Of a stretch of DNA of 64,000 nt, positions 56,520-58,385 are shown piece after piece (position 1 is the stretch's first letter; each line of letters starts with the position of its first letter). The notes beneath the pieces are model-generated. The model worked only from the letters and a program-made list of their open reading frames with translations, was not told where the DNA came from and made no database searches. Origin of the DNA: Calothrix sp. MO_167.B12 (GTDB lineage Bacteria; Cyanobacteriota; Cyanobacteriia; Cyanobacteriales; Nostocaceae); the NCBI GenBank assembly GCA_030066045.1, contig JASJCJ010000001.1, forward strand, positions 62,001-126,000, written 5' to 3'. Made by a program: the position numbers and the translations under genes.

Positions 56520-56593
56520 CGGGGCGTAGCGCAGCTTGGTAGCGCGCCACTTTGGGGTAGTGGAGGTCGTGGGTTCAAATCCCGCCGCTCCGA
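56520..56593 (+). tRNA. tRNA-Pro (anticodon TGG)
   Basis: CGGGGCGTAGCGCAGCTTGGTAGCGCGCCACTTTGGGGTAGTGGAGGTCGTGGGTTCAAATCCCGCCGCTCCGA; acceptor CGGGGCG/CGCTCCG pairs. Confidence 0.95.
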
Positions 56594-56601
56594 TTAGTAA
56601 A

Positions 56602-56723
56602 TGTCGAATAACCCTTTATTTGTCGTCGTTAAAACATTACTGTCGTTATTAACGATTTGAATGTCGTATTAACAAATTATTTTTGTCGGTTTCCTCCTGG
56701 CATCCGTTAACAAATTAATGTCG
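56602..56723. mobile_element. Putative Tn7-like/CAST transposon end (TGTCG array) 3' of tRNA-Pro
   Basis: TGTCG at 56602, 56621, 56641, 56662, 56684 and 56719 with TTAACAAATTA(AT)-type companions. Confidence 0.5.
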
Positions 56724-57022
56724 TTGAAATAATTGATTAATTGTTGGAGGGGAATATTTAGTCCGTTGGGGATTATAAATCCCTATCTAAGGGACTTCCA
56801 CGAAATAAATTATCCCACATTGTAATCCCACCGTAACCCCGCCCCTACGAATCATAACATTGGTAAATTAACGTTTGGGATCTTTTTGAATCTGGAAGTC
56901 CCGAATAGCTCAAACCCTCTTTTAAACGACTAAAAAAATACAAATAATTTTTATCTTAAACACAATGATTATCATCCCCATTCTATTTATAGTGGCTGAT
57001 ATTTAAAACAAGGTGCATTCTC

Positions 57023-57868
57023 ATGAGTTACGACAATGCTTGTAAATATTTAGCTGAAGAATATCCAAGAGATTTTATGCGGTGGTTGCTGGGAGTAGAA
57101 CCACAAAATATAGAAGTATTAAAAACCGAATTAACATTAGAACCCATTCGCGCTGATTCTGTTATTTTTCTGCAAACGGAAAACGAAATTTTACACATCG
57201 AATTTCAGACTTTACCCCAATCAACCCCAGCAATACCATTTAGAATGCTTGATTACTCGGTACGGTTGAAGCGACAATATAAATGTGATGTGGTTCAAGT
57301 GGTAATTTTTCTCCAGGAGACAACAAACGAAGTTGTTTTTACAGAAGAATATCGAGATATAACAACCACCCATCATTATCAAGCAGTGCGGATATGGGAG
57401 CAAGAACCAGCATTATTCTTAGATAACCCTGCTCTCTTACCCTTAGCGACATTAGCACGGACAGATTCTCCACAAAGCTTGCTTGGACAAGTAGCCGAGA
57501 AAATCGCTAAAATTCCAGATAGAGAAACAAAGCAAAATATCGCAGGTTGTACGGAAATTTTAGCAGGACTGCGGTTTGAGAAAGATATTATTCGTCAATT
57601 TCTACGGGAGGATATCATGCAGGAATCGGTAATTTATCAAGATATTTTACAGAAGGGTTTAGAACGGGGTAAAAAGCAAGAAGCACTTTCTTTATGTAAT
57701 TCTTTGTTATCAGAACGTTTTGAAGAGCTTGATTCATCGATTATTGCGCGAGTTCAAGTCTTATCTGTGGAAAAATTGGAAGCATTAGTAAGAGCATTAT
57801 TTAGGATTTCAACTGTAGATGATTTAGTCGCTTGGTTGGATAATCAAGTCAGGGAAGAGAATAGTTAA
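57023..57868 (+). CDS. Rpn/PD-(D/E)XK nuclease-family transposase-like protein with DUF4351-like C-terminus
   Basis: MSYDNACKYLAEEYPRDFMRWLLG, ILHIEFQTLPQSTPAIPFRMLDYSVRLKRQY. Confidence 0.82.
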   Translation: MSYDNACKYLAEEYPRDFMRWLLGVEPQNIEVLKTELTLEPIRADSVIFLQTENEILHIEFQTLPQSTPAIPFRMLDYSVRLKRQYKCDVVQVVIFLQETTNEVVFTEEYRDITTTHHYQAVRIWEQEPALFLDNPALLPLATLARTDSPQSLLGQVAEKIAKIPDRETKQNIAGCTEILAGLRFEKDIIRQFLREDIMQESVIYQDILQKGLERGKKQEALSLCNSLLSERFEELDSSIIARVQVLSVEKLEALVRALFRISTVDDLVAWLDNQVREENS

Positions 57869-57870
57869 TT

Positions 57871-58385
57871 ATGCAGGAATTAGTGATTTATCAAGATATT
57901 TTAGATAAATTACCCCAAAGCTATTCTGCTGAATTGTACAACCAAGAATGTCAACAAATCTTTCAACCGGATGACGCGGGGACGCGGGGACACGGGGACA
58001 CGGGGACGCGGAGCGGGATGTGTCCCAAGCCCCGTGTCCGGGGCGATAAGCCCCAAGGGTCCTCCTCCCCCATCAAATCTGCGATTTGATGGCTCCCGAT
58101 TGGTGGGCACCTCAAGCCCCCACCACATCGGTGTCTGGTGCGTCTCCCCCTCTCCGCGTCTCCGCGTCTCTTCTTGACCATATTTATGAATCTTATACAG
58201 GACAAGGACGCAGTATTTATGAAACTAACTCATCGCCATTGTTACGAGAAAAAAACAACCATGATGTGATAAATATGAGTAATTTGGAGCGGCAAATTAT
58301 CCATCAGGATACCATCTTATACACCACAGGTGATCGCATCTTTAATTATCATCATTCATTAACAGAAAAATCAACTTGTTCGTAA
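57871..58385 (+). pseudogene. Small hypothetical ORF apparently interrupted by a GC-rich repeat insertion
   Basis: MQELVIYQDILDKLPQSYSAELYNQECQQIFQPDD before, HIYESYTGQGRSIYETN...TILYTTGDRIFNYHH after the GACGCGG/CCGCGTC block (~57973-58172). Confidence 0.4.

Follow-up and report, generated by a model that had tools for sequence, protein, structure and literature searches.

Six TGTCG words stand on the same strand within 125 nucleotides (nt) directly behind a proline tRNA gene of the cyanobacterium Calothrix sp. MO_167.B12, raising the question of what put such an array there. The array lies in a 64,000-nt stretch of contig JASJCJ010000001.1 (positions 62,001 to 126,000; hereafter the window, in whose coordinates all its positions are given), and an earlier reading of these letters (the original prediction) had suggested a transposon end. 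We regard the array, with a probability of about 0.95, as the solo left end (LE) of a Tn7-like type V-K CRISPR (clustered regularly interspaced short palindromic repeats)-associated transposon (CAST) that homed to the tRNA-Pro gene and the rest of which is gone. It is the remnant of an already known kind of element. The predicted placing of the words right behind tRNA-Pro proved exact, as TGTCG was found on the + strand at 56602, 56621, 56641, 56662, 56684 and 56719, with 8 nt between tRNA-Pro(GGG) and the first of them. The array is a single copy in the 7.66-Mb genome of this strain, a draft of 321 contigs.

A BLAST search with the array alone against 99 genomes returned matches in 31 of them (this strain counted), with E-values down to 2e-31. 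In three relatives (G052, G007 and G026), the window array aligns end to end with the LEs of CASTs in which Cas12k is located 0.8-1.3 kb inward of the LE, and TniQ, TnsC and TnsB follow one another beside an inverted right end. Copies near intact tnsBC-tniQ-cas12k, which the original prediction had proposed to look for, were thus found, and its assignment to a V-K CAST end is borne out by the same sequence forming the left end of elements with Cas12k, TnsB, TnsC and TniQ. In G052 (locus L071), the array begins 6 nt past tRNA-Val and bounds a 14.3-kb element that runs from a 639-residue Cas12k through cargo, TniQ, TnsC and TnsB to the inverted end CGACATTAATTTGTTAAGACGACATTTAATTAGTTAACCGACA, a plan shared by G007 and G026. 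Target duplications of 5 bp flank the elements of G026 (ACTTA/ACTTA) and G007 (TTTTT/TTTTT), and the G052 flanks (TATAT/ATATA) form no clean duplication. The TnsB of G052 matches ShTnsB of ShCAST (E 9e-220), and the Cas12k of Brasilonema angustatum matches ShCas12k structures (E 1e-244). When scored with LE model R1, the window array reached 105.2 bits (E 1.3e-29, model positions 1-125 of 126), inside the 99-110 range of the closest-group LEs that adjoin a full-length Cas12k, and it is colinear over its entire length in the eight-LE alignment A1. R1 was trained on eight LE sequences with the window among them, so that independent evidence comes from the BLAST matches. Other genomes have the array behind tRNA-Val, tRNA-Thr, tRNA-Ala and tRNA-Pro(CGG), and several of these copies bound a CAST.

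Type V-K elements have been described with the LE downstream of a tRNA gene, 46-82 nt from a GTN protospacer-adjacent motif (PAM), and with an anchor spacer, usually of 17 nt, behind a truncated repeat (PMC9938897). The original prediction had taken a GGTA inside the tRNA as a sign of such homing. This GGTA is present at 56538-56541, and 60 nt separate the end of its GTA from the first TGTCG, the PAM-to-LE distance in eight relatives being 59-61 nt. In these eight relatives, a repeat remnant GGGTTGAAAG (or GGATTGAAAG) inside the LE is followed by 17 nt that match the adjacent tRNA at 15-17 of 17 positions, and the matching tRNA segment comes directly after GGTA. A guide for the window tRNA itself was found in two cyanobacteria by a pattern scan of an 85,462-species collection: the delocalised spacer GCGCGCCACTTTGGAGT, carried by Brasilonema angustatum (L097 4914-4930) and Scytonema tolypothrichoides VB-61278 (L076), pairs with the window tRNA at 16 of 17 bases immediately behind GTA. 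Another 13 matches of the scan, all non-cyanobacterial, are probably due to chance. On the evidence of the homologous elements, GTA at 56539-56541 is the predicted PAM, and the proposed homing via GGTA is supported by the B. angustatum guide. The window thus presents two features of an intact V-K CAST, namely an LE made of a TnsB-site array beside a tRNA gene and a GTN PAM with a tRNA protospacer at the published distance.

The other parts of the element were not recovered. No match to Cas12k (present in 47 of the 99 genomes) or to TnsB was found in the strain's own genome, in which TnsC and TniQ were not searched genome-wide. The genome holds no exact GAAAG-GCGCGCCACTTTGG as anchor guide (a mismatched guide was not searched genome-wide), and no repeat remnant lies within 600 nt of the window LE. 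The proposed search for a CRISPR RNA spacer against the tRNA therefore succeeded in two other cyanobacteria and not, for the exact guide, in this genome. The opposite end that was to be sought downstream is likewise missing: neither the window nor the next 20 kb (contig to 138000) yielded an inverted right end, although R1 picks up such ends at other loci with 27-29 bits. A right-end consensus matched in the window only the reverse strand of the array itself, and the only other own-genome R1 match at E <= 0.01 (contig C56, 19.7 bits, about 170 bp from tRNA-Thr) was rejected as too weak for an end. Matches to pattern TTAACAAATTANNNTGTC in the own genome, with 2 mismatches allowed, were no more numerous than those of a backward control, and the array was unmatched in plasmid records. 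Congener G002 is 97% identical to the window as far as 56597, stopping 5 nt short of the LE, and blastn shows it collinear with the window again from 58356. Between these synteny breaks lie 1.76 kb with the LE, a MITE-like (miniature inverted-repeat transposable element) repeat and an open reading frame (ORF) with DUF4351 (Table 1), in place of which G002 has an unrelated 1.4 kb. Because the synteny with G002 resumes after 1.76 kb, no large element stands behind the LE, which is therefore a solo end. The solo end or scar of the original prediction is thus what the locus presents, with full-length LE homology at a CAST attachment site and the other parts missing. The MITE-like repeat has 41 matches in the own genome (window copy counted) and 26 in G002.

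Table 1. Features at the tRNA-Pro locus, in window coordinates
Feature	Position	Strand	Basis or remark
tRNA-Pro, anticodon GGG; attachment gene, oriented toward the transposon end	56520..56593	+	ARAGORN
GTA, predicted Cas12k PAM (GTN) of the anchor protospacer	56539..56541	+	placed via anchor spacers of homologous CASTs
Predicted anchor protospacer GCGCGCCACTTTGGGGT within the tRNA	56542..56558	+	16/17 match to delocalised spacer GCGCGCCACTTTGGAGT
Solo LE of a type V-K CAST, six TnsB-type TGTCG sites (predicted)	56602..56726	+	LE model R1 and alignment A1
MITE-like repeat of about 118 bp, inverted ends GGGACTTCC...GGAAGTCCC	56788..56905	.	60 bp beyond the LE
Stretch without counterpart in congener G002	56598..58356	.	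blastn synteny
DUF4351 ORF within the preceding stretch	57023-57868		Pfam PF14261

At the orthologous tRNA-Pro(GGG) of Brasilonema angustatum HA4187-MV1 (L097; G102:C80), a CAST comprises Cas12k, a CRISPR array (repeat GTTTCAACAACCATTCCGGCTAGGGGTGGGTTGAAAG), a truncated repeat with spacer GCGCGCCACTTTGGAGT and the LE. As in the window, where a DUF1818 gene stands upstream of the tRNA, a DUF1818-like homologue is found upstream, the LE is of the same kind (81% identical to the window over 80 nt and 96% to that of G013) and the guide fits the window tRNA; unlike the window, cas12k and the CRISPR array are still present. The right side of this CAST is damaged, TnsB being found only from residue 314 onward and TniQ only up to residue 72, and the DNA fetched for the locus contains no recognisable right end. 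In Scytonema tolypothrichoides VB-61278 (G013; L076 1622-2420), a genome with no Cas12k match, an LE, the anchor guide and a right end are packed into 0.8 kb, and the sole trace of cas or tns genes is a TniQ match of 15 residues. The LE of this element is that of the window and lies equally far from the same PAM, but guide and right end are retained; the element either arose by deletion or is a mini-CAST without proteins of its own that is moved in trans. Congener G001 (L084) and G047 (L088) also have an LE at this tRNA. Both LEs resemble that of the window in position and in having no machinery adjoining, but most of their TGTCG sites are mutated (24 and 38 bits, respectively). At 15 other fetched tRNA-Pro(GGG) loci of relatives and in congener G002, no array was found and unrelated sequence follows the tRNA. 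Its absence from those 15 loci shows that the array does not belong to the tRNA locus as such. The counter-case raised with the original prediction, an array conserved at this tRNA in genomes with no insertion history, was therefore not encountered, the carriers including a CAST. The array-less sites L011, L014, L017, L020 and L021 have a hairpin with a T run directly behind tRNA-Pro(GGG), and a CAST insertion there would part the tRNA from this terminator-like hairpin. In G006 (L081 793-892), about 100 bp with GCGACAAATTATTTGTC-like motifs lie between tRNA-Pro(GGG) and a V-K left end; they are perhaps an end of another Tn7-like element that is nested at this tRNA.

While the identity of the end, the PAM, guide and distance in relatives and the absence of the rest here are shown directly by the sequences, the insertion and deletion events themselves are what we infer. 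An ancestor of the strain would have carried a CAST whose Cas12k, with a short delocalised guide, recognised the tRNA-Pro gene (GCGCGCCACTTTGGGGT after PAM GTA). Directed by TnsC and TniQ, TnsB would then have placed the element, with its left end leading, about 60 bp downstream and immediately beyond the 3' end of the tRNA. Later, the interior of the element and all that lay to the right of its LE would have been deleted or replaced, so that a solo TnsB-site array was left beside an intact tRNA. Selection for the tRNA would account for the survival of this tRNA-proximal end. The identity between this genome (G000) and G001 is 77% over the LE (80 nt) and 82% in the intergenic stretch upstream of the tRNA, values that fit a shared old insertion but are no proof of it. 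G002, 98% identical to G000 over that intergenic stretch, is the closer relative and would have lost the end if the G000/G001 insertion is shared. Its standing as a true ancestral empty site is thus uncertain, loss in G002 being possible given that the LE-bearing G001 is more distant. The six intact sites in G000 suggest either a late loss of the rest of the element or an insertion independent of that in G001.

Solo LEs are not confined to this strain. In a survey of the 99 genomes with LE matches of at least 45 bits and Cas12k sought within 8 kb, 13 of the 45 LE-like matches had a Cas12k match longer than 1.5 kb, 8 had a fragment and 24 had none. The figure of 24 is a rough upper one for solo ends, given that some lie near contig ends, some carry other parts, as in G033 where a second end follows at 7.9 kb, and two are halves of one array (G047:C390). 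A simple reason for solo LEs would be survivorship, with deletions that reach the tRNA being lost and those stopping within the element being kept. Degenerate cas12k copies have been mentioned (PMC9938897), and no published description of solo V-K LEs was found by a search that left the subscription literature mostly uncovered. Two further observations belong here. In G033 (L077 9686-17583), a pair of V-K-type ends at tRNA-Pro(CGG) encloses 7.9 kb in which no Cas12k is present; the guide is degenerate (15/17), and the flanks do not match as a target duplication. Truncated left ends in G052 (C18 153159-153231 and C19 127883-127955, 51.3 bits each) adjoin N-terminal TnsB fragments that are 56% identical, and they are perhaps copies of one deletion product.

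Other origins of the window array have to be weighed against a solo LE. It could be the left half of a protein-less mini-CAST, made of ends and guide and mobilised in trans, that lost its right half. This is unlikely: the 0.8-kb element of G013, in a genome without Cas12k, offers a precedent, but no mini-element sequence follows the LE in the window, where homology ends at 56722, and the G013 flanks (ATAAA/AAACA) form no target duplication, so that this copy may itself be a deletion product. We consider it very unlikely that the LE was kept for a function, by which a TnsB-bound end beside the protospacer would confer target immunity against CASTs with the same guide. All six window sites are intact, in contrast to the decayed ends of G001 and G047, PAM and tRNA protospacer are intact as well, and orphan LEs are common. 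However, no TnsB that could bind the array is detectable in the genome, so that a benefit would arise only once a CAST arrives, recent loss of the rest of the element accounts equally well for the intact sites, and several other orphan LEs are partly decayed. The more general proposal, that solo V-K LEs at tRNAs are frequent and selectively kept as passive immunity marks against re-insertion after the transposon is lost, is if anything less probable still.

An array belonging to the host tRNA locus and unrelated to transposition, such as a terminator or a regulator-binding array, would suit a position so close to the tRNA end, where several relatives have a terminator-like hairpin. Its absence from the 15 fetched loci and from G002, together with its presence behind other tRNAs and at CAST boundaries, makes this highly improbable; we take a host-feature origin as refuted, co-option after insertion being possible. 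Chance repetition in AT-rich DNA can practically be dismissed. The word TGTCG is short and shows no enrichment window-wide (39 sites versus about 48 in shuffles), but in 300 simulated 64-kb sequences with matching dinucleotide composition the largest cluster within 125 nt had 3 sites, a six-site cluster has a Poisson probability of about 1e-11 per 125-nt stretch, and the matches in relatives reach the E-values given above.

Several points nevertheless weigh against a solo V-K LE with the history outlined here. The motif [CT][AG]ACAGTAAA is absent from the next 20 kb, and one end alone allows no target-duplication check. Given the 321 contigs of the draft, a copy of the machinery may lie in a gap. 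Without a surviving guide here, the targeting history leans on relatives, and a shared insertion with the decayed LE of G001 is unproven, independent insertion being the alternative.

The locus shows that a scar of 125 bases, with no cas or tns gene, is enough to trace the history of a V-K CAST. CAST counts that rely on cas12k only are probably low and miss many past insertions, because 24 of 45 strong LE-like sequences have no Cas12k within 8 kb. A site with intact PAM and protospacer beside a solo end also represents a natural test of V-K target immunity and of element loss. Compared with the known type V-K systems, ShCAST of Scytonema hofmannii and AnCAST of Anabaena PCC 7120, the window keeps the LE only, with right end, Cas12k, TnsB, CRISPR array and anchor guide not found alongside. 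By contrast, it has the same GTN PAM and a protospacer inside the tRNA, its PAM-to-LE distance of 60 nt falls within the published range of these systems (PMC9938897), and the relatives with a window-type LE encode proteins like ShCas12k and ShTnsB.
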